Source of the DNA: a virus
IMG/VR virus record: IMGVR_UViG_3300010883_000362
Coordinates: 1-26,671 of that record
Strand: one strand, 5' to 3'
Length of the DNA stretch: 26,671 nt
This document shows, piece after piece, positions 3,212-25,400 of the stretch. How positions within the stretch are numbered: position 1 is the stretch's first letter; each line of letters opens with the position of its first letter. A program made the position numbers and the translations under genes. The notes under the pieces are model-generated. The model worked only from the letters and a program-made list of their open reading frames with translations. It had not been told where the DNA came from and ran no database searches.

Positions 3212-3218
3212 TATACAC
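3212..3218 (-). promoter_or_regulatory. GTGTATA late-promoter-like element
   Basis: On the minus strand this reads GTGTATACT, 41 nt before the ATG at 3171, in the gap between two fibre genes. The same GTGTATA core appears in four other intergenic gaps on this strand. No good -35 box sits 17 bp upstream; a TTGACT lies only 6 bp before the TATACT. I read it as a -10-type late promoter, by inference. Confidence 0.5.
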
Positions 3219-3219
3219 G

Positions 3220-4344
3220 TTAAGTCAAATACCAGTGACTATTATTAGAAATAGCAGTTACCGACTCATAAAGGTTGTCGATGCCGAAAGAAGACGATCC
3301 GTCTATAGTTTCTGAGCCATAAGGATTAATGGTAACTACATTGCTACCCGCAGTTCTTTTGAATATAAACTCCTTGCCCCCATTGCCCGCTGCTGTTGGT
3401 AGGGCTATCTCTATTGACTCAGATGAAGAGTCTACAAATACTACGCAGTCGCTAATTAGTAGTGTCGCATCTGCGATTATAGACTTGTATGTTCGCCAGC
3501 CTGTCTTTGGGGATGTAGTTTGACTAGTTCCATCAGAAAAATTAATGGCCGGGGCCGTAATAACCCCTCCCGAATCCACATAAGATAAAACAGTGTCGGC
3601 ACTATTTTTCCATTGCTGTAAGTGGGCCGACTGTGACACGGCACCTCTAACTGTAATACCCACCGTTGAAGATAAAGCATTATCGTATAGTAAGCCTCCA
3701 ACCTTATCTACATTAAACAGTACAGAATCTTTATGTGTTACCCAGAAACCATTAGAGTAATTTATTAGCGATGATGTATCGCTAGTAACATACATTCCAA
3801 CCGAGCCGTTATTTCCATAAACGTATCCCTGATCTGGAGATTCCGTCGCTGTTGAAGGAGAATTTTTAAGACCCAACTTCCAAGTGGGCATGAGATTGTC
3901 TTCAAGGTACAAGCCTATTGTTCTATCATTAGCATTATCTATATAGGCATGGATAAGATTACCAGAAGAAGTTCTAGTTATAGTAAGAGTAGAACCAGAA
4001 TTGGAAACATCAAATCGATGATCTCCAGACTCGTCTAGAAAAGAGGATCTACCCGCCGGATATGTCACGAATACCACGGAGGTGCCATCAAGAGAAATTT
4101 TTACGCCTGCGCCACTGCTACCATCTAGAACGGTGTCTCGGGACAAGGTGTTAGTCGATGAAGAATAGGTTCCTATGCCTACTTCCCACCGGGTCATATT
4201 TTCTATGGTATAATATGTCTGATTGCCGTTGCCAATCCCATTGGCAAAAGTTTGAAATCCACCATAAGCCCCGCCCAACGCGATGTCAGACGTGCCAATG
4301 GTGGTGGTTTCTTCTTTTACTCTGTCTGCTACAACTACAGCCAC
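3220..4344 (-). CDS. Tail-fibre-like protein, 374 aa, GTG start
   Basis: The N-terminus (DRVKEETTTIGTSDIALGGA, GFQTFANGIGNGNQTYYTI, then WEVGIGTY) matches a common N-terminal domain of phage fibre and structural proteins of the 'vke.tt..gtg...l.ga..gf..f' type. That domain is usually followed by TLSRDTVL and VFVTYPA, both present here, and it probably attaches the protein to the virion. The C-terminus (IEIALPTAAGNGGKEFIFKR, INPYGSETIDG, HWYLT) is the module shared by this fibre cluster. The start is GTG at 4344, with AGGTGAG about 6 nt upstream; no ATG fits. It begins 16 nt after the stop of the 1526-aa fibre and is probably co-transcribed with it. Confidence 0.75.
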   Translation of the reverse strand: MAVVVADRVKEETTTIGTSDIALGGAYGGFQTFANGIGNGNQTYYTIENMTRWEVGIGTYSSSTNTLSRDTVLDGSSGAGVKISLDGTSVVFVTYPAGRSSFLDESGDHRFDVSNSGSTLTITRTSSGNLIHAYIDNANDRTIGLYLEDNLMPTWKLGLKNSPSTATESPDQGYVYGNNGSVGMYVTSDTSSLINYSNGFWVTHKDSVLFNVDKVGGLLYDNALSSTVGITVRGAVSQSAHLQQWKNSADTVLSYVDSGGVITAPAINFSDGTSQTTSPKTGWRTYKSIIADATLLISDCVVFVDSSSESIEIALPTAAGNGGKEFIFKRTAGSNVVTINPYGSETIDGSSSFGIDNLYESVTAISNNSHWYLT

Positions 4345-4360
4345 GTTCTACTCACCTATA

Positions 4361-7300
4361 CTAAGGATGAACCGATATTCCATGGAGAATGTGATAGCTT
4401 GTACCGTCAGAAACGACAGTCATCACTTGATAAAGATCAGTAAGAATTTTCGAGCTTGCACCATCAATTGTACTCGCTGAATAAATGGTTACATCGTAGT
4501 CGCCATCGCCAATCATCTTGATAGCATATTTAGTTCCGGCTGGAGTGCTGCTGGGCAGCGTGATAGTGCAGGAATTATCACTTGTATTTACAAGAGTTAC
4601 AGACGTATCAGCCGTATGGCTGGTCGTTACCGTTCTCACATTATTCATATATTCTTTAAGATCATCAACTGCGCATTGAACCATTGTCCCATTATCATTA
4701 AGAACAACTCTATCGGCATCTACAACTACAGTCGCTGTGGCAGAATTATCGCCGTCTAAGATATTAAGCTCTTCTGTAGTTATAGTTACTCCGTCAAGTA
4801 TATTAATCTCTCCGGCGGTAGACGTTACGCCGTCAAGTATATTAAGCTCCCCTGTAGTTAGGGTCGCTCCATCAAGAATATTAAGTTCCGCCGTGGTAAC
4901 CGTTGCTCCATCAAGAATCTCTAGCTCAGCCTCCAGAATAGCCGCATCTCCAATGGTGAGACCAGTAGCGTTGAAAATTCCACCTTGATCCAGATGAGCC
5001 ACCGTTGCGCCGTCTGCCCTTTCCCACTCTTGCACCTTGACAATATTATCACTAGACTCTGCTCTAACTACCAGAGTGGCGCTTGGATTAATAGTTGCCT
5101 CACCAATAGACATCCTCTTGAGAGACATGTCACCAGCAATAGTAGTTCCTAGAGCAATCTTATTATTTATTTCTTCAACACCGCCACCAATCAACCTGTT
5201 GGTCCCACCAGCACCCACTGTTAGTTCAATATTAAGAGAACCTGACACGGCCTCTAAAGCGTTATCGCCAATGCCGATAGACCTTTGACTGGAAGCAAAC
5301 TGGCCAGCAGAGTCTCCGATAAAGACTGCGTACTGAGAATTATCTGCATCATACCCAGCGCTAGAGCCAATAAATACTGAGTGCGATGCGTTGACAGTAC
5401 CGTAACCGGTTCTATAGCCAACAAAGTTAGAGTAATCACAGCCAGAAGCATTAAGGCCAGCTTCTGGACCTATAAAACTAGTAAAATCACAGAATACAGC
5501 ATTGTCAGCAGACTTATAGCCGATCATGTTGTTGTAAGTATTATTGACTGCATCAATAGTACTAGTGTTTGTGAATGCGTGATTATAGTTATTAAGAATC
5601 CTTGAAGTAGTGTCATCTAAGTAAGTAGCAAACTCAACAATCTTCATCTTACCAAGTGTTCCACCCGTACTTAGAGCTAAGTATGAAGTATCGCTAGACA
5701 CCGTGGACACATCGGTTGCCTTGCTCATCTCCTCGATGTTTAGATTAAATACTTCGTTCTCTGCCGTAGTATCTATATAGCTACTAAGCCCTACTCCCGG
5801 TATAGTTATAATTCCACTAGTACTACCAATACTTGTACCATCACTAAATCTAACTGAACCTAATAGATTGAGGTCTCCCTTAAGCTCAGCGACTGGCCTA
5901 ATAGGACTGGGAACATAGTAGCTAGGATAAGTACTCATAGCATTTGCATTATGCCGGAGAGTAAATATTGTGTCTACTGTATCATCAGCACCCCTAAAGG
6001 TAAATGCAACACCGCCCTGAACTTGGTCATTGATCGTGTCAACCTTTTCAATGATTGAGCCAATTCCGTCATCAAATTGATCGTTATAATGCCTCAGTAC
6101 TAACTGGTCAACTCCCTGATCGGAAGTCACTATAAATCTAGCTCTTGGAACAGAGAGAAATCTCTCGTCAACAGATGGACCCATAAGCCCATCAAGAATA
6201 ATATTGTCTTCGTTGGCTCCAATTAGAATAGTATAATCAGTATCTGTTCCTCGACCAATTTCCTCCGTGCCGATAATAATACTATTGCTAACATCATTAT
6301 CAGAAGTCTTCAAGGCATTATGCCCAATGATTACATTGTGACTACCGCCGACTAAAGATCGACCAGTATTATTTCCCACAAGGGTATTGCCACTACCAGA
6401 GGTAATTCTATAGCCAGCTAAATACCCAAACGCCGAATTGCCTCGACTATTTGTTAGCTTGTTTAACGCCCTATCTCCAAAGGATGTATTCTCTCTACGT
6501 TCATAACCTAATATATGAGCTTCTCTACTACTAGGAGAAGATCTACCAGCAAATGTATTGCCGCTTGAGTCAGTATAGACCCCCTTTGCGCCAGATACAT
6601 CATAGATATTAAGACTTAAATCAAATCTGTTGCCCGCATCGTCCATAAAATATGGAGCTTGCGTTTGAAGATTGACCCCGCCCCAATACTGCTCAGATCC
6701 ATTCAGGCCGCTAATATAGATCTTTCCAAATTCAGACGTGATAGATGGAGCCTGCTTCTTACCCATCTCTCTTATACTGAGTACGGGTTTACTTCCACTG
6801 CCATCCACATCCCTATCATCAATCGTTAATGTCTCATTGGGGCTAGTTGTATTAATTCCAACCCGGTGATAAGAATCCTTGCTCCAATCAAGAGCGATGA
6901 TTTCTCTTCTAACACCACTCTGAAATACGCTTAAGTCTACAGTGCTTTGATTAAAATTATAGTCAAGCTCAAACCCTTGGACTCCACTATTTTCAGGAGA
7001 AAGAAGTTGCAAAGATGACTTGTTGCCTGAAGCGGAAGTCACTCTCAGTATAGCGTCGCCAGTAGCCTGAATATTAGTAATCGTATTGGGCAGAGGTGCA
7101 TTAAATCCATCTGAGGAATTAGTGATACCCACTAGACCCGGAGAACTCGACCTCATGATAATAAATGCATTCAGTGGGGTCGGTGTGTCATCATAAGCAG
7201 AAATTACAAGCCTGTCTGTCGCTTGATTATCTAGAATTGTATTTTTGGTATCTACATAATCAATTCCAAACCCAACAATATGCTCTCCCTGACTTCCGAC

Positions 7301-8941
7301 TTCTTTCCGCATAGTCCTGCTGACAAGTCTTTGGCCAACAGTAACACCTGATGACAAGGAAGAATAAGTAACCCTATATGCATTGACTTCACCAGACCCA
7401 ACAAAGTTAATATTCGAAACGTTTGCTAGACGACTATCTACACCACGGGGGTCAGGTTTAAACAAATCTTCAGTACCGAAAAAGATTGCATTTTCATCTA
7501 CAGTAGAACCGATCACCAAGTCTGTATCAGAATCAAACTCAGAAACTCCCTTGACAAAAATACCATAACCAGATGGGCCACAAGAAATCATGGACAGATT
7601 TTTTCTGCCAATAATTCTATCTGTTTTTAAATGGCTTCCAGAAGCAATATGGATACTAATATTGCTATTCCATGCAGATCTAGAATATGGACTATCCATC
7701 TCTAAGCAGGTAAGAGTCGCATCTGTAGAAGTAAAAATAAACTCATAGTCTCTTCTATAATCAATACCACTAGACTGTAGAACAAATCCTCCTCCCTCTA
7801 TCTGTTGATCCTGTAGCCAACCACATGGTGCGCCTCCTCCAGACACACAAATGTCTCCACTAGAGGCTAGATAAAGAGTTCTACACTCATAAATACAGCT
7901 ATTAATCTCTGTATAATTAAAAGTAGTGACATCAGCCGTTCCGCTAATAGTAATATTTCCAAAGTGAGCGTCCCACCTTAAGTCTGGAGTGCCCAAGGAA
8001 AACTCGGTATTCCAGAGTGGAACTATATTACCACGAGAAGTAACTAGACCTTCATCTCCAGACGGAAGATTGGTGCCAAGGCCTATGAGGCCGCCACTAG
8101 ATAAGAATATAACATCAGATTTAACATAGTCGCCTCCACCCGGCGTCTGCTCTGGGCCACCGCGACGTATAGAAAAATTACCTGAATCAGGATATTCTAA
8201 TACATCAGATACGAAGAGATTACGCCAACTCTTCTTCTCATGTCCAAGGTCATATATTCCAGACTCTGAAGGAGATACGGTTCCAGCAACTTGCAGCGTA
8301 CCATAGTTGTGTAGAGTGTCTGTACCTATGGCTAACACGAGATTATACAGGTCACCTCTCATGAGAGGAACTAAACCCGACCCCAAGGGGTTGTCACATA
8401 CCCCGCTTTCATCTATATTGTGACTGCCCAAGTAGAAGTTATAACTAGAATTTGTGCCTATATAATGTCCAGCAGCATGCCCGATAGCAATGTTATAATT
8501 GCCTTCTTTATTCGATCTGAGAGCATTGCTACCAATAGCAACATTGCCTGAACCATATATATTATTGGTAAGAGCCTGAAACCCTAGGGCGGAATTATTA
8601 TCCCCATAAAGGTTACAACTCATGGCATACGAACCTATGGCGGTATTAGAGAATCCGTCATAGTTGTTTCCCAGAGCAAAGTAGCCAAACGCAGAATTAT
8701 CTGTGCTACTATAACCGGCCAGATATAGATTCTTTATGGTGTCAATGCCAGCCTTAGTTGTTCTAACGTCAGGCGTGGAAAAGTTGAGAGAGTTTAGATT
8801 GTTGTCATCTGTGAATAGATGTACAGAGTCTATAATGTCAAGCAGGTTATGCCTGACATCATTAGGAGAAACTGCCCCAGTAGAATTATTGGGTATTTCT
8901 CGCTTTATATTATCTATGAGTTGTAACTTATCTACAATCAT
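4361..8941 (-). CDS. Giant tail fibre with YadA-like head repeats, 1526 aa
   Basis: This is the largest protein in the window and the likely main receptor-binding or long fibre. Residues 8-42 (a short helical segment with SPNDVRHNLLDIIDS) look like a phage-fibre N-terminal attachment element. Three blocks of YadA/Hep-Hag-type head repeats follow, with units such as NSAFGYFAL, NTAIGSYAM, NVAIGSNAL and YNIAIGHAAG. They lie at roughly residues 80-170, 815-905 and 1135-1235. These motifs form trimeric left-handed beta rolls in bacterial adhesins. Near residues 1345-1397 there is a tandem 13-residue ILDG repeat, then a DADRVVLNDNGTMVQ module. The C-terminal module (CTITLPSSTPAGTKYAIKM, STIDGAS, VVSDGTSYHIL) is shared with neighbours. 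The ATG at 8941 has only a weak GGGGT upstream. It may be translationally coupled to the gene before it. Confidence 0.85.
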   Translation of the reverse strand: MIVDKLQLIDNIKREIPNNSTGAVSPNDVRHNLLDIIDSVHLFTDDNNLNSLNFSTPDVRTTKAGIDTIKNLYLAGYSSTDNSAFGYFALGNNYDGFSNTAIGSYAMSCNLYGDNNSALGFQALTNNIYGSGNVAIGSNALRSNKEGNYNIAIGHAAGHYIGTNSSYNFYLGSHNIDESGVCDNPLGSGLVPLMRGDLYNLVLAIGTDTLHNYGTLQVAGTVSPSESGIYDLGHEKKSWRNLFVSDVLEYPDSGNFSIRRGGPEQTPGGGDYVKSDVIFLSSGGLIGLGTNLPSGDEGLVTSRGNIVPLWNTEFSLGTPDLRWDAHFGNITISGTADVTTFNYTEINSCIYECRTLYLASSGDICVSGGGAPCGWLQDQQIEGGGFVLQSSGIDYRRDYEFIFTSTDATLTCLEMDSPYSRSAWNSNISIHIASGSHLKTDRIIGRKNLSMISCGPSGYGIFVKGVSEFDSDTDLVIGSTVDENAIFFGTEDLFKPDPRGVDSRLANVSNINFVGSGEVNAYRVTYSSLSSGVTVGQRLVSRTMRKEVGSQGEHIVGFGIDYVDTKNTILDNQATDRLVISAYDDTPTPLNAFIIMRSSSPGLVGITNSSDGFNAPLPNTITNIQATGDAILRVTSASGNKSSLQLLSPENSGVQGFELDYNFNQSTVDLSVFQSGVRREIIALDWSKDSYHRVGINTTSPNETLTIDDRDVDGSGSKPVLSIREMGKKQAPSITSEFGKIYISGLNGSEQYWGGVNLQTQAPYFMDDAGNRFDLSLNIYDVSGAKGVYTDSSGNTFAGRSSPSSREAHILGYERRENTSFGDRALNKLTNSRGNSAFGYLAGYRITSGSGNTLVGNNTGRSLVGGSHNVIIGHNALKTSDNDVSNSIIIGTEEIGRGTDTDYTILIGANEDNIILDGLMGPSVDERFLSVPRARFIVTSDQGVDQLVLRHYNDQFDDGIGSIIEKVDTINDQVQGGVAFTFRGADDTVDTIFTLRHNANAMSTYPSYYVPSPIRPVAELKGDLNLLGSVRFSDGTSIGSTSGIITIPGVGLSSYIDTTAENEVFNLNIEEMSKATDVSTVSSDTSYLALSTGGTLGKMKIVEFATYLDDTTSRILNNYNHAFTNTSTIDAVNNTYNNMIGYKSADNAVFCDFTSFIGPEAGLNASGCDYSNFVGYRTGYGTVNASHSVFIGSSAGYDADNSQYAVFIGDSAGQFASSQRSIGIGDNALEAVSGSLNIELTVGAGGTNRLIGGGVEEINNKIALGTTIAGDMSLKRMSIGEATINPSATLVVRAESSDNIVKVQEWERADGATVAHLDQGGIFNATGLTIGDAAILEAELEILDGATVTTAELNILDGATLTTGELNILDGVTSTAGEINILDGVTITTEELNILDGDNSATATVVVDADRVVLNDNGTMVQCAVDDLKEYMNNVRTVTTSHTADTSVTLVNTSDNSCTITLPSSTPAGTKYAIKMIGDGDYDVTIYSASTIDGASSKILTDLYQVMTVVSDGTSYHILHGISVHP
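4751..4906 (-). repeat. 39-bp in-frame tandem repeat (4 copies plus a partial)
   Basis: Four consecutive 39-bp units begin at 4751, 4790, 4829 and 4868, with a degenerate partial unit from 4907. Each encodes a 13-residue unit of the form ILDGxTxTTxELN. The units differ at many third positions, so the array is old or under selection for the protein rather than a recent slippage product. It lies within the 1526-aa fibre gene, close to its C-terminal domain. Confidence 0.85.
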
Positions 8942-8956
8942 TTTTGTACCCGACCC

Positions 8957-9421
8957 CTACTTAAAGCTGATTTCGAGAGTACCCATGTCAAACTTGACAT
9001 TGTCGCCGGTATAAATAATTCGTGGATTGGTTAACTCGGCATGCAGAAGCACATTGCCAGAACCAAACACTCCATTATCCAAGACAGCTACCCCAGAAAC
9101 CCAGCCCCAGTCAATAAGGGCGGTACTAAAGACAATTTGTCCACTATTTCTAATAACTCCACTACCAGCCCCATCGTCTTCCCCCGTAAGGGACCATGTC
9201 AGGTCTCCATCTTCAAATGGCGATCCCATACTTACTCTTCCATAGCCTGTTCCAGAGCCATTAATTCCGGTGGGCATTTCAATAAGAGTAGCTCCAGTCA
9301 TACTGTCCTCTGGGACACCGCTAGTTAAAGCGATAGAAATCTCAGTAGGCTTAGTAAAGGAATCACTCCTAAAAACATGATTTAAGAGGTTTTTTTCCAA
9401 ATAATCAGAGAATGCGACCAT
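8957..9421 (-). CDS. Small phage structural protein, 154 aa
   Basis: This is a small virion-type protein. Its N-terminus (VAFSDYLEKNLLNHVFRSD, then FTKPTEISIALTSGVP) matches a widespread family found next to fibre genes in many phages, in which residues of the form 'yLe..lL.hvfr...ytrP' are followed by beta strands. The middle has GTGYGRV and the end has a short GDNVKFDMGTLEISFK strand pair. I start at ATG 9421, which has AGGAG 8 nt upstream. The longer frame from 9496 would begin inside the terminator stem and add an unlikely hydrophobic leader. It is the first gene after the capsid terminator and has its own promoter-like element. The function is inferred as a tail or fibre-base component. 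Confidence 0.7.
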   Translation of the reverse strand: MVAFSDYLEKNLLNHVFRSDSFTKPTEISIALTSGVPEDSMTGATLIEMPTGINGSGTGYGRVSMGSPFEDGDLTWSLTGEDDGAGSGVIRNSGQIVFSTALIDWGWVSGVAVLDNGVFGSGNVLLHAELTNPRIIYTGDNVKFDMGTLEISFK

Positions 9422-9468
9422 GTTAATCTCCTGTGTGTATAGTCCTAAAAGAAAGCTTTCTACTAGTA

Positions 9469-9475
9469 TATACAC
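9469..9475 (-). promoter_or_regulatory. GTGTATA late-promoter-like element
   Basis: The minus strand reads ATGTGTATATACTAG, 48 nt upstream of the ATG at 9421 and only 2 nt beyond the T-run of the capsid terminator. No -35 box is apparent. It would restart transcription for the fibre cluster immediately after termination of the head operon. The assignment rests on the same core occurring in four other intergenic gaps. Confidence 0.55.
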
Positions 9476-9477
9476 AT

Positions 9478-9516
9478 AAAAAAAGAGCCGCCCCATATTA
9501 TTTATGAGGCGACTCT
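9478..9516 (-). terminator. Strong intrinsic terminator downstream of the major capsid gene
   Basis: On the minus strand a 13-bp uninterrupted stem (9516-9504 paired with 9496-9484, two G-U pairs, AGAGTCGCC...GGCGGCTCT) closes a 7-nt AT loop (9497-9503). A run of T residues follows directly, ending at 9478. It starts 26 nt after the capsid stop at 9543. It should separate the head operon from the fibre operon and limit read-through. Confidence 0.92.
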
Positions 9517-9542
9517 GGAACGGGTCTGTTTAAGTTCCTAAA

Positions 9543-10550: not shown

Positions 10551-10580
10551 TTATATTCTCCTTATTATTTGTTTAATTAT

Positions 10581-11081: not shown

Positions 11082-11110
11082 TATTTATCTCCTAGATTTA
11101 AAAAATTATT

Positions 11111-12584: not shown

Positions 12585-12591
12585 TATACAC
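12585..12591 (-). promoter_or_regulatory. GTGTATA late-promoter-like element
   Basis: The minus strand reads TTTTGTGTATATCTTG, 20 nt before the protease ATG at 12565 and after the portal stop. The leader would be only about 12 nt and would begin near the AGGG ribosome-binding site, which is tight but possible. No -35 box is seen. Confidence 0.45.
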
Positions 12592-14724: not shown

Positions 14725-14774
14725 TTTATTTCACCATATAAACAGTTGGAATGTAATTGGACTGTCACCATAAT

Positions 14775-14781
14775 TATACAC
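14775..14781 (-). promoter_or_regulatory. GTGTATA late-promoter-like element
   Basis: The minus strand reads ATTGTGTATAATTATGG, a perfect TATAAT preceded by GTG. It lies about 50 nt upstream of the portal ATG and directly beyond the terL stop at 14785. The hexamer 17 bp upstream (CGCAAG) does not resemble TTGACA. Confidence 0.6.
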
Positions 14782-14784
14782 AAT

Positions 14785-17035: not shown

Positions 17036-17037
17036 GG

Positions 17038-18891
17038 CTAATCATCGTATCTCATAAGTATTGAATCGAGACCGTTGTCTTCATACTGACTGGCCAATAT
17101 TTCTCCAAGGTTAACGCTTTTTCTAATCTGTCTATCCGTGGGGTGGTTGCCAGTAATTTTATTTTTTAGATTCTCGCAGGATACATCCGCTATAAGTGAT
17201 ATCGTAGTATCGGCTTTAGCAAAAGCATAACAAACAGTAACCATCATTGTAAGTAGGTTTTGTATTTTCCTAGAGAGTATAGACATTCGACATTGCCTGT
17301 CGGCCAACTTCAGTTGATACTTACGCATAAGGCTGCTTATCTCCCAAGCCGAACTTTGCAGATTTTTAATGGCGAAATTAGCATGGCAGACTAGATTCTT
17401 ATTGAACCCGATTGGGCGTATTCCACTCTTTATAGTTGTAGCCTCTGTAAAAATCCACTTAGCATATGGAACAAAAACTCTATAATTTTTAATCATGTCT
17501 TTGGGAGAGAGGCTCTTTTTCCCCAATTGGGACATGAGGTTTCCTACTGGCTCGAAATAGGTTTTCCCGTGATCTTTTACCAGACTTTTAAAGAATGCCA
17601 TATTGAGCATGTCGCCCTCTCCTTCGTAGATTAGGGGGGCCAGAAGGTCGTAAATATTATCTCCAATAATATGACCCCCTAGGAAAGATCTCCCGCCGTG
17701 AGTCTTCATGCACAAGTCAATAGCAGCTTCCTTTTGACACTCAGACCCAAAAGTTTTTGCTATGATGCACTCTAGCTCTCCTCGGTAGCCCTTATCTATG
17801 AGGCCGGAACACCAAGCTACCAAGGCGTCAGATGAGAGTATATAGCCAGCCAATCTGGCAATTCTGTCTTGAACAAGCTCTCTATTTTTGATAGGCTGTC
17901 CATACGTTGACCTATAGCTAGCCCAAGGAATCATTGATTCCAGCATAACCTTCATACATCCCGAAGCGTTGGCGCACAGGGACACCCTGCCTAGATTCAA
18001 CCCGTGATAGGCAACCGTCAGTCCGTTTCCACTCTCTAGGCTGATTAGGTTTTCTTTAGGCACTTTAAAGTCCTTAAACACCAAGGCGTTATTATACAAC
18101 TTACTAAGTGCGTATATATCATAGTTTACAATTTCAAAATGGTCAGTGTCTTCTTCTGGCAGCTCTACGATAATAACTTGAGGCTCGCCGTCTACAAGGC
18201 ATACGACAGACACAAGCCTTCCATAAATTGCATTGGTGATGAATAGCTTCTTTCCATTTATAAGGTAGTGATCACCATCCAAGCAGGCGGTAGTTTTTAG
18301 TGCGGTGAGGTCTGAACCAGCGCATGGTTCAGTTAAAGCAAAGGCAGAAAGAAATTCTCCGTTGGCCAGCTTGGGAAGATATTTCTCCTTTTGATATTCG
18401 CTACCAAATGTTCTAATGGGGTCGACGGACCCTATGCATCCATGTATAGAAGACAGGCCAGCTACACTCGCCTCGACGGAGGCCATCTTTGTAAGATAGT
18501 AGGAAAACTCGGAAAAAGAAACCGCAGGCTTTTCTGGCAAGGGAACTAGTTGTCCAAAATACCCAGCATCAGATAGATCTTTGAGAAGGTCTTCGCTTAG
18601 CTTTCCCTTATCATCATAAAGATTGCCCTTCTGCTTGAAAGACGAGGCAATACTCACACAGTTTTTTAGCATGGTAGAGTTTGGTCTATGGAAGTCGAAC
18701 TCAAAAAAGTTCTTAGTTGGAAACTCCCTACCCCACACAGCTTTAAAGGCGGGGCTGTTGTTGGTCTGGTATTTGTCTTCGAAAAGATGATCCACCTGAT
18801 CGTCTGCTGTATCCACCTTGCCTATACTTTTATACTCCTCTGCGCTTTTGCCACCTAGTTTCATAGCAGTCTCTGCGAATGATCTATTCAT
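17038..18891 (-). CDS. Acyl-CoA dehydrogenase family flavoprotein, 617 aa
   Basis: This is a complete acyl-CoA dehydrogenase (ACAD) family protein. These FAD enzymes normally oxidise acyl-CoA to 2-enoyl-CoA and pass electrons to ETF. The family signature AFALTEPCAGSDL is at residues 183-195. A second family segment, YRSTYGQPIKNRELVQDRIA, is at 326-345. THGGRSFLGGH is at 397-407, and LIYEGEGDMLNMAFF is at 420-434, with E423 at the position of the usual catalytic base. A C-terminal extension of about 170 residues follows. This gives a VLCAD/ACAD9-like length rather than about 380 aa. The start overlaps the preceding nuclease gene as ATGA, with GGAAGGA upstream, so the gene is embedded in the phage operon. 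Its role is unknown: lipid metabolism, or a non-catalytic use, is possible. Confidence 0.88.
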   Translation of the reverse strand: MNRSFAETAMKLGGKSAEEYKSIGKVDTADDQVDHLFEDKYQTNNSPAFKAVWGREFPTKNFFEFDFHRPNSTMLKNCVSIASSFKQKGNLYDDKGKLSEDLLKDLSDAGYFGQLVPLPEKPAVSFSEFSYYLTKMASVEASVAGLSSIHGCIGSVDPIRTFGSEYQKEKYLPKLANGEFLSAFALTEPCAGSDLTALKTTACLDGDHYLINGKKLFITNAIYGRLVSVVCLVDGEPQVIIVELPEEDTDHFEIVNYDIYALSKLYNNALVFKDFKVPKENLISLESGNGLTVAYHGLNLGRVSLCANASGCMKVMLESMIPWASYRSTYGQPIKNRELVQDRIARLAGYILSSDALVAWCSGLIDKGYRGELECIIAKTFGSECQKEAAIDLCMKTHGGRSFLGGHIIGDNIYDLLAPLIYEGEGDMLNMAFFKSLVKDHGKTYFEPVGNLMSQLGKKSLSPKDMIKNYRVFVPYAKWIFTEATTIKSGIRPIGFNKNLVCHANFAIKNLQSSAWEISSLMRKYQLKLADRQCRMSILSRKIQNLLTMMVTVCYAFAKADTTISLIADVSCENLKNKITGNHPTDRQIRKSVNLGEILASQYEDNGLDSILMRYDD

Positions 18892-19391
18892 TTTTTCCTT
18901 CCTATAGTATACATTTCGTTAACCCTCTTAAAGATGCTGCTAACTGTTAGAAATGCATTGTGTTTATTCCCACAGAATAAAACATGAACTTCTTCATGTA
19001 GCTGAAATTCCATTAGGCACTTTAGCATATACTTGCCAGTTATCTTGATGGAAGATTTGTTTTTCTCTGGTATTCTAGTATTCTCTGGAAAGTCTATTAA
19101 GTCATCTAAAGAAAACTCCAGAACAATAAACCGATGAGAAAAATCCTTCATGCGATCTATCTCGTTTAAGAATGCATGCTTTTTCTGCCCTAGGTTTATG
19201 GCTAGCTCTTCTATGCATCCCTTACGCTCTACACAACATTTGTCCTCCATGCCCAATATAGCGTAATCCCCCGTGTCTAGCTTCTCAGTCACCATTCCAG
19301 CGCATTTATTATACTTGCTAAAATAATACCCCTCCTGCTCTCGGGTATCTTTAATGACAAAGTATTCGGGTGCTTGCTTATAATTATCCAT
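18888..19391 (-). CDS. ERCC4-type (XPF-like) nuclease, 167 aa
   Basis: This is a single-domain ERCC4/XPF-family nuclease. The catalytic pattern is visible: VIKDTRE (D15, R17, E18), LDTGDYAI (GDY at 41-43) and CVERKGCIEEL (E55, R56, K57). These match the D...RE, GDY and (V/I)ERK...D/E core of ERCC4 domains, which cut branched or flapped DNA. No HhH domain is present, so it is a minimal version. Its ATG at 19391 overlaps the HNH gene by 8 nt, and its stop overlaps the acyl-CoA dehydrogenase start. A role in resolving replication or recombination intermediates before packaging, or in DNA repair, is inferred. Confidence 0.82.
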   Translation of the reverse strand: MDNYKQAPEYFVIKDTREQEGYYFSKYNKCAGMVTEKLDTGDYAILGMEDKCCVERKGCIEELAINLGQKKHAFLNEIDRMKDFSHRFIVLEFSLDDLIDFPENTRIPEKNKSSIKITGKYMLKCLMEFQLHEEVHVLFCGNKHNAFLTVSSIFKRVNEMYTIGRKK

Positions 19392-19659
19392 TTTTATCTC
19401 TCACTATCTGGTGAAATAGAACCTCATAGTGTGATTCTGATCCACTGATTGATTCATGGCATTTTTTACACAGGGTAATCCCGTTAGTAATATCAAATCT
19501 TAGTATCGCTGCTTCTGACCATTTCTTTATATGGTGAGCTTGTATCTTAAATCTGGACTTACACCCCGGCATCTGGCACCGACGCCCATCTCTTCGATAG
19601 ACTTTCTTCCGCCACTCTTTATAGGCGGGATCTTCGTAATTTCGTCGGGCTACTGACAC
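19384..19659 (-). CDS. HNH endonuclease, 91 aa, GTG start
   Basis: This is a compact HNH nuclease. Two CxxC-like zinc pairs (C28 and C33; C64 and C67) flank the HNH core: IQAHHIKKWSE (H42, H43), DITNGITLC (N59) and KKCHESI (H68). The start is GTG at 19659 with GAAGG about 5 nt upstream; no ATG fits. It overlaps the preceding small gene by 10 nt and the ERCC4 nuclease by 8 nt. HNH proteins near phage terminase genes can act in headful packaging. Free-standing homing HNH genes are the alternative, but the tight operon overlaps favour a fixed phage function. Confidence 0.85.
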   Translation of the reverse strand: MSVARRNYEDPAYKEWRKKVYRRDGRRCQMPGCKSRFKIQAHHIKKWSEAAILRFDITNGITLCKKCHESISGSESHYEVLFHQIVRDKNG

Positions 19660-19898
19660 TTTGCCTTCATGATCTTTACTTTCCGTCTTATCTGCCTACA
19701 CAGTAGTCTAGTCTTCACAGAGTCATCTTGGGCGAGTAGAAGTTTGACTAGGTTGTATACAGCCTTAAAGCATGCGTCATCGGGATTACGAGCCTCCACA
19801 AAAACAATGGGAAACATTGCGTTATATTTTCCCAGTGTGTAGGGCTTGAGGCTAACAATCACCTCGGTCATGTCAAGGTATACTTTGTAGATTGGCAT
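19650..19898 (-). CDS. Hypothetical protein, 82 aa
   Basis: No family is recognised. The N-terminal half has beta-like strands (PIYKVYLDMTEVIVSL, PIVFVEARNPDDA) and the C-terminal half is helical and basic (CFKAVYNLVKLLLA, RQIRRKVKIMKAK), so it might bind nucleic acid. It overlaps the end of the GDP-mannose dehydratase gene by 26 nt and the HNH start by 10 nt. The ribosome-binding site is weak. An alternative ATG at 19871, immediately after the dehydratase stop, would give 73 aa by coupling. The position suggests that it is real. Confidence 0.6.
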   Translation of the reverse strand: MPIYKVYLDMTEVIVSLKPYTLGKYNAMFPIVFVEARNPDDACFKAVYNLVKLLLAQDDSVKTRLLCRQIRRKVKIMKAKCQ

Positions 19899-20964
19899 TC
19901 AGGTCGTGTTCCATCATAACTTGTACTAGTTCTTCTAGTCCATGCGTTGCAGTCCAGCCAAGTTTTTCTCTAGCCTTGGAGGCATCTCCTCGAAGATAAT
20001 CCACTTCTGCTGGTCTATAAAAATCTGGATCAATTACTACTAAGTCGCTCCAGTCAGTAATACCGATATAGCTAAATGCATAATTCAGAAAATCCTTTAT
20101 ACTATGCGTATCACCAGTACATATGACATAGTCATCCGGCTGATCTTGTTGTAACATCAAATACATAGCCTCTACGTAATCTCCGGCATATCCCCAATCT
20201 CGGCAAGCGTCTAAATTTCCCAACCGAAGCTTTGGGTATTCGAATTCATCGTCATCTTCACGCCTATTTTTTATGTAAATTTCATCTACACCAAAGGAAA
20301 GAATGCTGTCGTGGTGAGAAATATGAAACCGATCTAGCCATTTGCAATAACCACCTATCCACTTGGTAATCTTTCTGGTAACAAAGCTTTCCCCACGCCG
20401 TTCTCCTTCGTGGTTGAATAGAATACCAGAACTAGCATGCAAGCCATAGGCTTCTCTAAACAGGCGGGTCATATAGTGAGCGGCAACCTTTGCTATAGCA
20501 TACGGAGATTGTGGTAAAAATTTAGTATCCTCATCTTGATATTTTTCACCATTCTTATTGATACTATGCGAGCCTCCAAACATCTCACTTGAAGACGCCT
20601 GATAAAATCTACACTGCAACCCAAGATCTACAATAGCCTGTAAGATATTTAAGCATCCTTTTCCAGTAATATCCCAAGTTAAACCGGGTTGCTTAAAGGA
20701 GACTCCCACATGCGACTGTGCAGCTAGGTTATAGACTTCATCTACATTCTCGTTATCCTTAAGAATTCCAATGATACTGAAAACATCTGTGATGTCTCCT
20801 TGAACAGCCTTGAAGTTAGCAATTCCTGATAGATGCTTGATTCTCTCTGTATTATCTATACTGCATCTTCTCGCCACTCCGACGACTTCATACCCCTTCT
20901 CTAGAAGTAGATCCGCTAGATGGCTCCCGTCCTGCCCGGTTATGCCAAATATAATTGCTTTCAT
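19873..20964 (-). CDS. gmd: GDP-mannose 4,6-dehydratase, 363 aa
   Basis: This enzyme converts GDP-mannose to GDP-4-keto-6-deoxymannose, the precursor of GDP-fucose and related deoxysugars. It is a short-chain dehydrogenase of the extended type, with NADP-binding GITGQDGSHL (residues 8-17), SSSEMFGG (124-131), SPYAIAKVAAHY (153-164; Y155 and K159 catalytic), LFNHEGERRGESFVTRKI (182-199) and LGNLDACRDWGYAGDYVEAM. The length is close to bacterial Gmd (about 370 aa). Compared with the E. coli enzyme as I recall it, there is an insertion of about 30 residues before LRLGNLDA. The start overlaps the upstream membrane gene as ATGA. It may modify host surface glycans or phage DNA or virion sugars. Confidence 0.95.
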   Translation of the reverse strand: MKAIIFGITGQDGSHLADLLLEKGYEVVGVARRCSIDNTERIKHLSGIANFKAVQGDITDVFSIIGILKDNENVDEVYNLAAQSHVGVSFKQPGLTWDITGKGCLNILQAIVDLGLQCRFYQASSSEMFGGSHSINKNGEKYQDEDTKFLPQSPYAIAKVAAHYMTRLFREAYGLHASSGILFNHEGERRGESFVTRKITKWIGGYCKWLDRFHISHHDSILSFGVDEIYIKNRREDDDEFEYPKLRLGNLDACRDWGYAGDYVEAMYLMLQQDQPDDYVICTGDTHSIKDFLNYAFSYIGITDWSDLVVIDPDFYRPAEVDYLRGDASKAREKLGWTATHGLEELVQVMMEHDLNANLQSIP

Positions 20965-21281
20965 TTTGTCTCCTCTTTCCTTCTCGCTCTAAATTTCCTT
21001 TTGATTGGCCATGTAATATAATGGCCTACAAAAAACTTAATTTCCTTCATGCCCAATTCCCGTCGAAGCTTATTCTCTAACTTTGTCACAGGACAGTCGA
21101 CCATTTGCGTAAAGGTCAAATTAAACACCCATGTCATTAGGGGTAAACTGATATACCAAGGTGTCATGAATGGCAAAACGAATATCGCAAATAGATTCCC
21201 AAAAACAACAAATAGATGAAAAGCAACAACTAGCTCCCACAGATGAAAAATCACGGCAGATCTTTTTGAAACACTCTTCAT
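20961..21281 (-). CDS. DUF2784-like small membrane protein, 106 aa
   Basis: This is a small inner-membrane protein with two or three hydrophobic helices (about residues 8-33 and 40-60). The feature that suggests DUF2784 is a conserved stretch after the helices: MVDCPVTKLENKLRRELGM, then FVGHYITWPIKRK. In that family the core is C-P-(L/V)-T-x-(L/W)-E-x-x-L-R followed by HY. The C-terminus is strongly basic (KRKFRARRKEE), consistent with a cytosolic tail. It ends with ATGA overlapping gmd and follows the glycine-rich membrane protein by 2 nt, so it belongs to the same translational unit as the ExbB/ExbD-like genes. The function is unknown. Confidence 0.65.
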   Translation of the reverse strand: MKSVSKRSAVIFHLWELVVAFHLFVVFGNLFAIFVLPFMTPWYISLPLMTWVFNLTFTQMVDCPVTKLENKLRRELGMKEIKFFVGHYITWPIKRKFRARRKEETK

Positions 21282-21283
21282 TC

Positions 21284-21892
21284 TTACTGCGATCCTTTCT
21301 CTGGTAATACTGGAGGAGGAAGTCGTTGGAATGAAATATCTCCACCCTCCGTAAGACTTCCTGCACCCTCTCCATCCTGTGATCCTTCGCCACCCCCTTG
21401 ACCAGATGGATCTTCTCCAGATCCAGCCTCACCTTTGCCCGACCCCGACTCACCCGACTCATTTAATCCTACAACTTGCTGGCCACCCCTGATCATGCCC
21501 AAGGCCTCCTGAGCTTTCTCGTGTAGCTTTCTTGTATATAGTAGCTTGTAAGCTCTAGGCTCCGAACTGTCGCCCCTCAAAAGGACTAGGTAGTCTGTCC
21601 AACCACTCGTCTTCTTTCGCTCCTTCAGGGGGTGTACCCAAGCAAAGATAGCTCCCCCAAACCCAGTCTTTCGGTCTGGCTCTTGAATGACCATCCAGTG
21701 AACATAAAACTCATCTGGAAGAGGCTCATCAGTTGGCCAGCCTTTAAAGCCCCTGATCGAAACTCCTACGGATAAACAGAAATATAATGCTACCGCGATA
21801 ACAAAGGCCTTTGTAGCCCAGTGGCCCTTGGAACCGATGATGACCCAAAGTAACAGCGACGTGATAACCGCAAAACCAATTGTAAGACTCAT
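21284..21892 (-). CDS. Two-TM protein with a glycine/serine/glutamate-rich tail, 202 aa
   Basis: The family is not named. Two N-terminal hydrophobic helices lie at about residues 3-20 and 27-46. A soluble domain follows (about 48-145, FKGWPTDEPLPDEFYVHW, GGAIFAWVHPL, SEPRAYKLLYTRKLHEKAQ). Next comes a low-complexity acidic Gly/Ser/Glu-rich linker (about 147-183) and a short end, ISFQRLPPPVLP. The soluble part with (P)RAYkLlYtRkLHE looks like a conserved phage protein family that I cannot name. It overlaps the ExbD-like gene at ATGA and is followed after 2 nt by the DUF2784-like gene. It is likely to be a partner of the channel-type proteins, inferred from this tight linkage. Confidence 0.7.
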   Translation of the reverse strand: MSLTIGFAVITSLLLWVIIGSKGHWATKAFVIAVALYFCLSVGVSIRGFKGWPTDEPLPDEFYVHWMVIQEPDRKTGFGGAIFAWVHPLKERKKTSGWTDYLVLLRGDSSEPRAYKLLYTRKLHEKAQEALGMIRGGQQVVGLNESGESGSGKGEAGSGEDPSGQGGGEGSQDGEGAGSLTEGGDISFQRLPPPVLPEKGSQ

Positions 21893-22494
21893 CTTCTTTC
21901 CTTAGCAGTTAAAGATATAGGTAATTCGTTTACTTCTATTACTTTCCCGTCTTTATCCAACTTAAATCTAAAAGCTGTCTTTTCGTCACCCTTGATATTA
22001 AGTATAACATCTCTCATGGCTACAGTCTTAAAGCTGGGATTTACTTTATCCAAACGAATGTTAACCGGAGTAGCCTGTGTCTCTGGCGAGTCATACTTGG
22101 AAAAGAGGTGAACATTGACGATATATTCTCCCGGCATAAATCCACGCAAGATAACTAGCTCAATATTCTCTTTATGGGTGATAGGTCCGAATTCCGTCTG
22201 TACAGTATCATTACGGTGCCCCAAGTCATCACGATCCAAATGCATTAGCCCCTGCTCCCTGCGCATGAATGCTACTAGGTTTCCCTGTGGGTCTTGCACA
22301 TACATATCGACATCATGATTCAACTCCGATGGCCACGTCACGGTTATGATGTAGTCAGCCTTGGCCTTAATATTGTTCTCATTCTTGCTGGGATTAATCA
22401 AAATAAAGGACAGCATAAACAATGCTGCAAAGCACAAGAGCGTATTAAACAACAGGTCCAAAAAGGCCAAGTTAGTATGGTAGTTCCGTTTCAT
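21889..22494 (-). CDS. ExbD/TolR/MotB-like protein with a YfaP/DUF2135-like domain, 201 aa
   Basis: The layout is that of ExbD, TolR and MotB: a short basic cytosolic N-terminus, one TM helix (about residues 9-34, LAFLDLLFNTLLCFAALFML), then a periplasmic domain. An Asp early in the helix (D13, in LAFLDLLFN) is at the place of the proton-carrying Asp in that family. The periplasmic part is not ExbD-like. HDVDMYVQDPQGNLVAF (60-76) and PGEYIVNVHLF (121-131) resemble the YfaP/DUF2135 beta-sandwich. It overlaps the ExbB-like gene upstream by ATGA and the next gene downstream by ATGA. It probably forms a complex with the ExbB-like protein and couples proton flow to something in the periplasm. Confidence 0.7.
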   Translation of the reverse strand: MKRNYHTNLAFLDLLFNTLLCFAALFMLSFILINPSKNENNIKAKADYIITVTWPSELNHDVDMYVQDPQGNLVAFMRREQGLMHLDRDDLGHRNDTVQTEFGPITHKENIELVILRGFMPGEYIVNVHLFSKYDSPETQATPVNIRLDKVNPSFKTVAMRDVILNIKGDEKTAFRFKLDKDGKVIEVNELPISLTAKERR

Positions 22495-22997
22495 TTTCTT
22501 ACCTGATCAATCGCCTGATTAAGATTAAAATACTGAACCTTTAAAAGAGAACTACAAATTAGACCCGTCAGCGTACTATACAGCGCCGTTGACATACCAG
22601 CACCAAGATTCTTGATTAACCCCTGCACCGTATTGATATCGGAAACGTCTACCTGAGCAAGTCCCGACAGCATCATAACAAATCCGATCACCGTTCCCAT
22701 CATGCCGATACTCAAACACAGGTCGCTGGTAAACCAGCCCACTTCTACTAGATGTTCAATCTTTTCTACAAGGTGCTTATCTTCTCCCTCTTGGTCTAAA
22801 AAGCAGCTAAGCCTCCACGTCTTCACACCACACCACGTAGACATACCCATAAAAATAGCGAGAAGTACAAAGCTTAACTTTGTTGTATCTTCATTCCACA
22901 AGATTAACCATCCGCCATTGATAGCTATCAACACTATGCCCACTATAGTTGCAGTAAAAATAAGCCACCACTTAAGAAACAGCGTGTGTTTAATCAC
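22491..22997 (-). CDS. MotA/TolQ/ExbB-like proton-channel subunit, 168 aa, GTG start
   Basis: This is a four-helix inner-membrane protein: about residues 9-33, 41-61, 88-113 and 127-152. The last two helices carry the MotA/TolQ/ExbB pattern: SIGMMGTVIGFVMML (96-110), then GLIKNLGAGMSTALYSTLTG (126-145). This corresponds to GllGTViG and the later 'gia.AL.tTa.Gl' helix with its conserved threonines. Such proteins form pentamers around a dimer of an ExbD/MotB-type partner, here the next gene. The cytosolic loop is short. The start is GTG at 22997, with a GGAGGGTGG-type ribosome-binding site about 6 nt upstream. Its first 8 nt overlap the preceding miniprotein gene. The phage role is unknown. Confidence 0.78.
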   Translation of the reverse strand: MIKHTLFLKWWLIFTATIVGIVLIAINGGWLILWNEDTTKLSFVLLAIFMGMSTWCGVKTWRLSCFLDQEGEDKHLVEKIEHLVEVGWFTSDLCLSIGMMGTVIGFVMMLSGLAQVDVSDINTVQGLIKNLGAGMSTALYSTLTGLICSSLLKVQYFNLNQAIDQVRK

Positions 22998-23157
22998 GAT
23001 CCCACCCTCCCGAAGTTATCGAATGTCTCTCTACAATGCCGCACCTCTTACATTTCCGATGCTTGACAGAGTGCGACTCGACGCCACCACCCTTCCAGAT
23101 ATACTCCCACATGTGCCATCCGAGCCAGCATAAAAACTTGAGAACATTAAGCCACAT
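22990..23157 (-). CDS. Trp-rich miniprotein with CxxC, 55 aa
   Basis: This small gene has a good AAGGA ribosome-binding site 6 nt before ATG 23157. The N-terminal half is hydrophobic and unusually Trp-rich (WLNVLKFLCWLGWHMWEYIW). The C-terminal half is cationic with a HxxxxHRKCKRCG cluster (H35-ish His with CxxC at 36-39), which could bind one zinc ion as a small zinc-ribbon half-site. It follows the possible small terminase by 2 nt and overlaps the ExbB-like start by 8 nt, so it belongs to the operon. No family is recognised. The hydrophobic, Trp-rich start could be a membrane-surface helix. Confidence 0.65.
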   Translation of the reverse strand: MWLNVLKFLCWLGWHMWEYIWKGGGVESHSVKHRKCKRCGIVERHSITSGGWDRD

Positions 23158-23159
23158 AA

Positions 23160-23945
23160 TTATTCCTTTATAGTGTCTGAGGTTAAGAAGGGCTGGTCTA
23201 CTGTGCCATCCTCATATGTATGAAATTCTGACAACCTTTTTCTTTCGCCCTCCATAGCCAAACGCATCTTCTCCATCTCAACCGAATACTTCTTAACAAG
23301 ACTCGGGTTCTGAATCAGATGAGCCATCCACCCCACAAAAGTTAGACGAGAGTCTTCAAGCCTCTTAATACGCTGCTCACGAGTACCCTTCATCTCTTTT
23401 AGCATAGAGTTCTTCTTAGTCTGCAAGTCGCGGTAGTCCCTATTCAAGGACTCCTGAGCGGCACGAAGAGAAGCGATTTGTCTCTCAAGGTTTAATATGT
23501 AGTCTCGGTCTTGTTGGTCGGGGTCTACCGACCTTTCCTGCTGTATCACTCCTTCAAATGCGCTAATCTTATCTATGTTATCTTTGTTCTGCTTAAGAGA
23601 ACGATTCATAAGCAGTTCCAACTTAATAGCGTCAACAACCTGCAACTCTTCTGTTGGAAATACATCATCCTTGAACTGCGAGATAATACGTGCCCAGTGG
23701 TACTTGAATAGTTCCAGCTCTTCATAAGTAAACTGCTGCCCAAGCTCTTTCCAATAGGGGCGTTCCTCTAAAGAGTACGTAGCCTCTTCTTCTTCTGATA
23801 AGCCAAGTTTAAGCTTGCGCTTTATAAACAGTTCGATAGACTTGGGATCACGACTCAGTGCATCTGCCATTGCCTCTACAGATAATGCGTCCACATTCTT
23901 TTCAATGAAGTTGGTCTCTTTCTTTGACAATCTACCTTTCCGCAT
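23160..23945 (-). CDS. Possible small terminase or HTH DNA-binding protein, 261 aa
   Basis: The N-terminal 45 residues (KGRLSKKETNFIEKNVDALS, MADALSRDPKSIELFIKRKL) look like a helix-turn-helix. They are followed by YWKELGQQFTYEELELFKYH, a long helical region and a coiled coil (about 130-240, RQIASLRAAQESLNRDY and similar). The order, DNA-binding head then helical oligomerisation and a C-terminal tail, is what small terminase subunits show, and no other small-terminase candidate is visible. AGGAG lies about 7 nt upstream of ATG 23945, inside the sigma gene's 3' end. A transcription factor is the alternative. The assignment is by architecture only. Confidence 0.4.
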   Translation of the reverse strand: MRKGRLSKKETNFIEKNVDALSVEAMADALSRDPKSIELFIKRKLKLGLSEEEEATYSLEERPYWKELGQQFTYEELELFKYHWARIISQFKDDVFPTEELQVVDAIKLELLMNRSLKQNKDNIDKISAFEGVIQQERSVDPDQQDRDYILNLERQIASLRAAQESLNRDYRDLQTKKNSMLKEMKGTREQRIKRLEDSRLTFVGWMAHLIQNPSLVKKYSVEMEKMRLAMEGERKRLSEFHTYEDGTVDQPFLTSDTIKE

Positions 23946-24432
23946 GGCCGTGCTCCTCTAATATTTCATAGACAAAGGATAGTACTTCTTCTTTCCTCTT
24001 TTTGGGAACGTAAACATCATGAATAATCTTAAGATAGTCAGAGCGATAGCTAGCGGGAAGCTTGATGTCCAGTATCTTTAGCATCATTCGGTAATCAAGT
24101 CGATCTTTCACTTCTTCGTGATAATCAATAATGTATTCCTCATTTGCTAGTTGACCGGGCATAGCAACGCGCCTTTTTTCTGTTTCATCCTTAGTAAAAT
24201 AATTATCCCTGACAAAGTTCTTTAGCCTGTTAGATAAATGTACGGCGAGAAAGTTTTCTAGCGGCCTTTCCTCATCATATCTGGGTAGAGCTTCCATACA
24301 GATAATAAAAGCCTCTTGTTTTATATCCTCAAATTCGTATCCGTAAAAGGTGTACTTATGGGCGAGACGGTTGACAACGACATTTATTTCTTCAATAACC
24401 TGTTCTTTAGTCATGTTAGAAGGAATATGCAT
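23932..24432 (-). CDS. gp55-like late sigma factor (sigma-70 region 2), 166 aa
   Basis: This is a small sigma-family protein. Residues 20-80 (VVNRLAHKYTFYGYEFEDIK, EAFIICMEALPRYDEERPLE, NFLAVHLSNRLKNFVRDNYF) match sigma region 2: hydrophobic helix, DIkQEaf element, FD/YDe, then 'F..yl...l.N.l...i'. There is no region 4, and the size is close to T4 gp55 (185 aa). gp55 recognises a -10-only late promoter. The start is ATG 24432 sharing its A with the TGA of the preceding gene, with AGGAAG about 7 nt upstream. A longer frame from 24462 overlaps by 31 nt without its own ribosome-binding site. It is the obvious candidate to read the GTGTATA elements, by inference. Confidence 0.78.
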   Translation of the reverse strand: MHIPSNMTKEQVIEEINVVVNRLAHKYTFYGYEFEDIKQEAFIICMEALPRYDEERPLENFLAVHLSNRLKNFVRDNYFTKDETEKRRVAMPGQLANEEYIIDYHEEVKDRLDYRMMLKILDIKLPASYRSDYLKIIHDVYVPKKRKEEVLSFVYEILEEHGHAER

Positions 24433-25205
24433 CAAATATCTTCCTGTACCAGTGCTACCCATTTTTCACCGTCGAATAGCTCTATCCTTTTGCTTTCTTT
24501 GTTATATATAATGTAGCCTTCTTGGGCGGGTGGCTTATCTCTATCTGTATAGACTGGAGAAGCTTTAAAGACGGGAGAGGAAACTGAGGCATTTTTCCCA
24601 GTAAGCTCTAGACGGCGTGTGCCAATCTTGAGTTGTTTTTTTGGCTTTGTAAGAAACATACTTCTCAGTTCATCCATATCAATTGATTGTATTACATCGT
24701 CTTTTCTTCCTAACAGAGACTCTGGTTCCAATTCAACCGGTGTGGGATTCATCGGTGTCGTAGAAGCTATGATAGAATGGGGGGCGACGAGAGCTTCTAA
24801 ATAGTTGAGGGGCGAAACAGATAGGGCCATAAGATAGTCACCACCTCCAAACGTTGTGGGATCCGTGAAACTTCCTGCGTGAAGTTCCTCTCCACTTGTA
24901 GTACCCCACCCCAAGGGCATTTCCCTTACAATATAATACTCATCGTCACGAAGCTCTATGTGTCCGACACCTCTTTCATAAATAGAGGTTTGGTCATCGT
25001 ACTCTTGTATAATATAGTAGAAGCGATGGTCCAGTCCTATAATAGAAGAGAATAGCCTATCATCAGATTCCAGTCCACTCACATCAACCTCTGAAAAATC
25101 ATGGACTTCGATTAGGGCCTTGGTGCCCAGCAATCGTATATCATGGGAGCCTTCGACTTGACTAGCAAGCTCGACAGCTCCATGTCGGAATCTACTCTTG
25201 TGCAT
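24432..25205 (-). CDS. Probable virion protein, 257 aa
   Basis: The family is not recognised. The C-terminus (QEGYIIYNKESKRIELFDGE then KWVAL, about residues 224-251) is the beta-hairpin 'G.i.yN....l...dg..W..l' typical of phage fibre and neck proteins and of cyanophage structural proteins. The N-terminal part is rich in acidic beta-strand residues (FYYIIQEYDDQTSIYERGVG). The middle is loop-like with SLLGRKDDV. It starts at ATG 25205, overlapping the previous small gene by 14 nt, with only a weak AGAAGAG site, and it ends coupled to the sigma gene. I infer a virion component because of the end module. A regulatory role cannot be excluded. Confidence 0.55.
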   Translation of the reverse strand: MHKSRFRHGAVELASQVEGSHDIRLLGTKALIEVHDFSEVDVSGLESDDRLFSSIIGLDHRFYYIIQEYDDQTSIYERGVGHIELRDDEYYIVREMPLGWGTTSGEELHAGSFTDPTTFGGGDYLMALSVSPLNYLEALVAPHSIIASTTPMNPTPVELEPESLLGRKDDVIQSIDMDELRSMFLTKPKKQLKIGTRRLELTGKNASVSSPVFKASPVYTDRDKPPAQEGYIIYNKESKRIELFDGEKWVALVQEDI

Positions 25206-25356
25206 TCTCTTCTGTGTCCTCTTCGTCTTCTTCTACAATTTCAGACAGGGGCTTGTCTTTTAATTTTAGCTCATCAGCAATCTGATTGTCTAGAGCAGCA
25301 GTCGCTTTGCAATCCAATTGAGACTCTATGGATCGTCTATTGTCATCTTTAGTCAT
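25192..25356 (-). CDS. Small acidic protein, 54 aa
   Basis: This is the first gene of the minus-strand operon. It encodes a highly charged protein with a basic start (TKDDNRRSIESQLDC) and a run of Glu/Asp near the end (IVEEDEEDTEENAQE). The AGGTGA ribosome-binding site is 4 nt from the second of two adjacent ATGs (25356) and 1 nt from the first (25359), so 25356 is preferred. Its 3' end overlaps the next gene by 14 nt. A GTGTATAAT promoter-like element lies 38 nt upstream. No family is recognised. It might be an adaptor or inhibitor, but nothing in the sequence says which. Confidence 0.6.
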   Translation of the reverse strand: MTKDDNRRSIESQLDCKATAALDNQIADELKLKDKPLSEIVEEDEEDTEENAQE

Positions 25357-25393
25357 CATGTCACCTTTAGAAATGTTGGAGCCTACAGTTTAT

Positions 25394-25400
25394 TATACAC
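25394..25400 (-). promoter_or_regulatory. GTGTATA late-promoter-like element at the operon head
   Basis: The minus strand reads AATAGTGTATAATAAAC, with a perfect TATAAT preceded by GTG, 38 nt upstream of the first operon ATG at 25356. The expected -35 position shows TGCTTT, which is not a sigma-70 -35. It would drive the long operon through terL. Confidence 0.6.

Follow-up and report, generated by a model that had tools for sequence, protein, structure and literature searches.

What reads GTGTATA, a 7-mer that stands before five genes on the minus strand of a virus fragment that also encodes a small sigma factor, is the question raised by this locus. The fragment (IMG/VR record IMGVR_UViG_3300010883_000362; 26,671 bases, hereafter the window) had been reported in a preliminary description to carry five identical copies of this element upstream of genes, none with a credible −35 box, and no further copy on the same strand. 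All of this was borne out by our analysis. The minus strand contains exactly five GTGTATA, at positions 3212, 9469, 12585, 14775, and 25394, which lie 19–50 nt before the ATGs at 3171, 9421, 12565, 14724, and 25359, respectively, and all five sites match TTGACA at no more than 3/6 positions at spacers of 16–18. An order-2 Markov model predicted 1.8 copies for the entire minus strand and 0.09 for the strips located 10–60 nt before minus-strand genes. These strips contained every minus-strand copy (P(≥5) = 5e-8), and GTGTATA was their commonest 7-mer. When both strands were counted and position was ignored, the 6 copies observed against 3.2 expected were ordinary, and it is therefore the placement of the element, not its number, that carries significance.

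Each of the five minus-strand sites is a predicted promoter. The site at 25394–25400, with a predicted transcription start site (TSS) at 25385/25386, precedes an operon in which the sigma gene is third, and the site at 14775–14781 (predicted TSS 14766/14767) precedes the portal gene, where GTGTAT was found in all 28 relatives displayed. The site at 12585–12591 (predicted TSS 12576/7) lies upstream of a 484-aa gene, with equivalent sites in five relatives (G001, G010, G013, G015, and G021); the label "protease" that this gene had been given could not be kept, as its product had no significant family match. The site at 3212–3218 (predicted TSS 3203/4) precedes a gene for a 633-aa fibre-like protein. 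The remaining site, at 9469–9475 (predicted TSS 9460/1), precedes a small head gene and comes right after an intrinsic terminator (9484–9516, minus strand; a 14-pair stem and a T-tract) located between the putative major-capsid gene and this promoter. The T-tract of the terminator leads straight into the GTGTATA promoter, an arrangement that was also seen in relatives L101, L115, L123, and L138, and the pair would serve to terminate and then re-initiate transcription past the putative capsid gene. A sixth GTGTATA, on the plus strand at 9435–9441, pairs with the 9469 site as an inverted repeat across the head-gene leader. It was rejected as a conserved hairpin arm: the equivalent site in L115 is followed by a different sequence, and the first arm of a 9435/9469 hairpin would stay untranscribed, so this reading was set aside.

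We next asked how the element is distributed among relatives, for which searches of IMG/VR returned 463 portal-encoding and 306 sigma-encoding matches. All 7-mers were tested for enrichment, with no prior motif, in windows from −80 to −15 upstream of genes in 93 related loci; ORFs were called by a simple longest-ORF script, and some small-gene starts may be off. The top-enriched 7-mer was GTGTATA (139 occurrences vs 3.6 expected), GTGTAT occurred in 93/93 loci, and when six long related records (80–167 kb) were taken one by one, GTGTATA always ranked 1–3. The same method, applied to the T4 late region as a positive control, recovered TATAAATA; it gave no enrichment of GTGTATA in the controls T4 and phiEco32. 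The preliminary description had considered the case that the motif is equally frequent inside genes; instead, it was 39-fold denser upstream of genes than in the rest of the genome. Of the variants that differ at one base, GTGTATT alone came near this value (15.8-fold vs 39-fold). The element is common to relatives of 35–44% GC, and its constancy over this range argues against a host-specific signal. The family that carries it consists of uncultured, mostly aquatic phages. Because the loci share ancestry, we thinned them by identity, which left 124 sites at ≤70% identity and 70 GTGTATA sites at ≤55% identity; orthologous sites owe some of their conservation to common descent.

The thinned sites gave the consensus WWTT-n-GTGTATA(A/T)T-n4-T-R-R-A, in which three signals lay outside the search criteria. 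TRR at positions 14–16 was present in 59/124 sites compared with 25/277 in-gene GTGTAT copies (p = 3e-17), and the AT-rich stretch at −5 to −2 and the T at position 9, the latter at a frequency of only 0.65–0.71, were also specific to the sites relative to the in-gene copies. The TRR signal looks like a transcription start site, and the layout appears to be that of a −10 element with a purine start approximately 6 nt downstream. A hidden −35 was sought by PWM, per-position chi-square, and shuffles, and was absent save for a weak trend in the sigma-operon promoters. No position from −40 to −6 of the aligned sites was informative at the per-position chi-square threshold, and a −35 matching at 5/6 or better was found at 2/124 sites, the same as in shuffled sequences. 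The earlier proposal of −10-only elements thus gains support from family-wide conservation and promoter-like anatomy, and the sites would behave as −10-only promoters that are kept across the family.

Since a perfect TATAAT lies inside 52/124 of the non-redundant sites (~40%), the elements could instead be promoters for host sigma70 that have a strong −10 and a weak or extended −10 contact in place of the −35, with the phage sigma reading something else. The weak −35 at the sigma-operon sites, described below, is also in favor of this explanation, which we nevertheless consider unlikely. While the TATAAT is shared with host sigma70 promoters, these sites differ from them in having no −35, a GTG that abuts TAT, and a rigid 7-mer; GTG is as rigid as TAT, whereas the last −10 base, the T at position 9, is not. 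An extended −10 (TGnTATAAT) was rejected on register, since GTG directly adjoins TAT and the TGn spacing is incompatible with GTG-TATAAT. Moreover, one entire clade has GTGTATTAA at its portal sites, which makes a poor −10 for sigma70, and the same phages carry near-perfect TTGACA–TATAAT promoters elsewhere, on the other strand.

In the window, these sigma70-type promoters lie beyond the head of the sigma operon, on the plus strand, in a divergent early region. Two are perfect (TTGACA-17-TATAAT, at 25699–25727 with CGATA in the spacer and at 26404–26432), one is near-perfect (TTGACG-17-TATAAT, 25900–25928, again with CGATA in the spacer), and one is weaker (TTGATT-17-TATAAT, 26234–26262, with GCCGATA in the spacer). 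In the genome of relative G001, 26/26 near-perfect sigma70 promoters were found on one strand. The opposite-strand sigma70 promoters probably mark the early region, in keeping with the usual divergent early/late layout. The early promoters of the window, G001, G010, and G015 also share a conserved G(C/A)CGATA box, mostly 3–5 nt past the −35. CGATA was detected in the spacer of 52/174 near-perfect promoters, against 2.2 expected from shuffled spacers, and the box looks like an operator placed inside the spacer.

The promoter of the sigma operon differs in degree from the other GTGTATA sites. The element occurs upstream of sigma in 54/61 non-redundant relatives (10 expected by shuffling), in most of them 810–1,070 nt before the sigma start, as with the site at 25394 in the window. 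TATAAT was kept more often at the sigma-operon sites (30/43) than at the others (44/97; p = 0.01), and a faint −35 was detected at 13/43 of them vs 5.4 in shuffled sequences, with 0/500 shuffles as high. The window's own sigma-operon site has a −35 of only 2/6, the weak −35 being a trend of the family. The more frequent TATAAT together with the faint −35 suggests a hybrid promoter that could be seeded by the host and amplified by sigma, and we infer that sigma may exert positive feedback on its own operon.

The sigma gene lies at 23932–24432 on the minus strand; its ORF was listed as 176 aa from 24462, and the start that is conserved, an ATG at 24432, gives 166 aa. The protein comprises region 2 (residues 3–78), a disordered linker, and a conserved C-terminal domain of three helices (114–160). 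The window protein matched Sigma-70 region 2 (PF04542, Sigma70_r2) at 34 bits against a cut-off of 24, and this profile was matched by 31/31 sigma homologues at E ≤ 1; Pfam region-4 profiles had no match among the 31 members. AlphaFold with the 31 homologues yielded a sigma2 domain at residues 3–78, with Z scores of 8–9 and 2.2–2.8 Å against E. coli sigma70 and others. The C-terminal domain modelled alone had a pLDDT of 86, and its best structural match was SigL region 4 (Z 7.2, 2.5 Å over 65 residues), which is weak for a helical domain, so that the resemblance to a degenerate region 4 is no more than suggestive. A sigma region-2 protein was found in 21/22 longer relatives. In the exception, G004, the portal gene lies at contig position 5,824, and sigma would be expected approximately 9 kb upstream, past the contig end. 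Among 50,697 phage records, tblastn gave no match to the sigma.

Several observations point to this protein as the reader of GTGTATA, as had been proposed. An RpoB domain, indicative of a multisubunit RNA polymerase, was not found in nine long records; the PF00940 search for a T7-type RNA polymerase had no working positive control. Given that neither a multisubunit RNA polymerase nor a clamp was detectable in these records and that the motif is constant across GC content, the phage sigma is the best candidate reader, its recognition of the element being inferred. No relative was found in which sigma and motif change together, and their co-occurrence therefore cannot single out sigma among the family-conserved genes.

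A second alternative is that GTGTATA is bound by a different conserved regulator of the phage, either an activator or a repressor, or by sigma plus an activator, rather than being sigma's own −10. In its favor, the element is rigid and many other genes are conserved along with it, phiEco32 gp79 activates gp36 promoters (PMC8948821), and the portal promoter has a fixed direct repeat downstream. In the window, this repeat, TCCAATTA-CATTCCAACT, occupies 14744–14761 (minus strand) at a fixed distance from GTGTAT. Among the relatives, the portal site of one clade is GTGTATAAT, directly past the TerL stop, and in another clade the element falls within the last TerL codons (GAT GTG TAT TAA). Once per locus, the leader of the portal mRNA carries the direct repeat TCCAATTA..ATTCCAATT 18–22 nt past GTGTAT, a spacing observed in 52/52 loci with upstream DNA present and in both clades. 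The spacing between GTGTAT and the leader repeat has thus been retained even though the TerL stop has shifted, and the repeat is a candidate operator or translational control site. Against an activator or repressor site, the TAT core, the ~6 nt to the start-like TRR, and the AT-rich flank make up the anatomy of a −10 element, and the aligned sites show no other −10-like element; we regard this alternative as very unlikely. A repeat that arose by chance, by coding constraint (for example, conservation of the DVY* codons at the TerL C-terminus), or purely by descent is scarcely credible. The overlap with TerL codons in one clade speaks for it; against it, other clades keep GTGTATA just past the stop at the same distance from the leader repeat. 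As a general explanation it is refuted by the enrichment across the 93 loci, by the 70 sites at ≤55% identity that share the element before different genes, and by the 39-fold upstream enrichment.

In comparison with known systems, the sigma had been called gp55-like. In T4, gp55 is a region-2 sigma that acts on host core polymerase with gp33 and gp45 at the late promoter TATAAATA (PMC2988020), and the present system resembles it in having a region-2 sigma and −10-only promoters before virion genes. The promoter here is GTGTATA instead of TATAAATA, and TATAAAT was not enriched upstream of genes in the window or the six long relatives by the method that recovers it in T4. Alignment of the sigma profile, which is shallow (Neff 2.4), with the single T4 gp55 sequence by hhalign gave a probability of 3%. 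No beta-type clamp (PF00712) was detected in nine long records, which may be incomplete, although control genomes matched, and T4 gp45 as the query found nothing in five records but matched T4 itself; the clamp search with PF02916 had no working positive control. In the model, the C-terminal domain resembles a degenerate region 4 rather than a tail that binds a clamp. On these grounds the gp55-like designation was not upheld. The suggestion of late-only use proved too narrow as well: some GTGTATA sites in the long relatives stand before non-structural genes, an endonuclease among them, and "middle and late" is therefore a safer label than "late".

The closest known system is phiEco32 gp36 rather than T4 gp55. 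The gp36 promoters consist of a single element, tAATGTAtA, with starts 6–8 nt downstream, and gp36 has no region-4 homology and serves middle and late genes (PMC8948821, PMC4281155). In both systems, a small phage sigma whose sequence shows no recognisable region 4 goes with single-element promoters that lack a −35 and contain TGTATA, and early genes are on sigma70 promoters (PMC8948821, PMC4281155); the TRR signal here lies at the expected distance, consistent with a predicted start like that of phiEco32. They differ in the core, GTGTATA here vs AATGTATA there, and AATGTAT was not clearly enriched in the family records by the same enrichment method. Furthermore, gp36 has 214 aa compared with 166 aa here, hhalign of the two sigmas gave a probability of 1.3%, and the phage records that TerL or portal matched did not include phiEco32. 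Phage 7-11 also encodes a sigma, gp47, that controls late genes, but its promoter is bipartite (GTAAtg-16-aCTA) and its region 4 is true (PMC8948821). Phage 7-11 also calls for caution, as an earlier in silico promoter motif for it (PMC4331800) differed from the promoter later mapped experimentally (PMC8948821); the evidence for GTGTATA is comparative and appears, at the level of sequence, much deeper than that motif. A literature search for GTGTATA as a phage promoter found nothing relevant, the occurrence in PMC5587285 being a sigma70 promoter that contains the 7-mer by happenstance. These comparisons place GTGTATA as a new promoter specificity in a familiar type of system, one in which both the element and the sigma family are distinct.

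Two further genes and a possible host link were noted. A 617-aa protein (17038–18891, minus strand) has all three acyl-CoA dehydrogenase domains and is encoded inside the phage operon, which makes it a candidate for an unusual auxiliary metabolic gene. A 168-aa protein (22491–22997, minus strand) matched the MotA/TolQ/ExbB proton channel family at 35 bits against a cut-off of 22.9. In addition, contig VFHP01000009.1 of a SAR202 MAG (L143–L147) was 97–98% identical to phage record G001 over tens of kb; the contig may be mis-binned phage DNA, so the link to SAR202 as host is weak and was set aside.

Promoter-like anatomy, conservation, co-occurrence with sigma, and segregation of early and late promoters by strand were observed computationally. 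We assign a probability of about 0.85 to the reading that GTGTATA marks a class of phage-sigma promoters without a −35 that serves structural and some middle operons, with positive feedback and sigma as the reader; start sites, timing, and feedback are predictions of this reading. The five copies would be the core of a phage-specific class, (WWTT-n-)GTGTATA(A/T)T-n4-T-R-R, without a −35, that drives structural operons and some middle operons. Host sigma70 holoenzyme would first read the strong divergent early promoters, and host polymerase would seed the sigma operon through its GTGTATA/TATAAT site. The 166-aa sigma would reprogramme host core RNA polymerase, boost its own synthesis, and then switch on the remaining operons.

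More tentatively, and with doubt outweighing confidence, these elements may be joined into a self-contained lytic switch that combines early sigma70 promoters bearing the operator-like G(C/A)CGATA box, a host-seeded and self-amplified hybrid promoter of the sigma operon, and a single-chain sigma2 plus degenerate sigma4 that reads GTGTATA without a −35 or a clamp. Such a single-chain sigma would resemble a fused gp55–gp33-like late sigma, the absence of which in T4-type phages has been remarked on in a T4 review (PMC2988020).

Together, the element and its sigma would constitute a new promoter specificity, carried by a widespread group of uncultured phages, and GTGTATA would allow the early and sigma-dependent operons of such metagenomic genomes to be told apart from sequence alone. 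The two are also a candidate for a small orthogonal sigma/promoter pair, and the system may reveal how a phage sigma that reads only a −10 can do without a sliding clamp.
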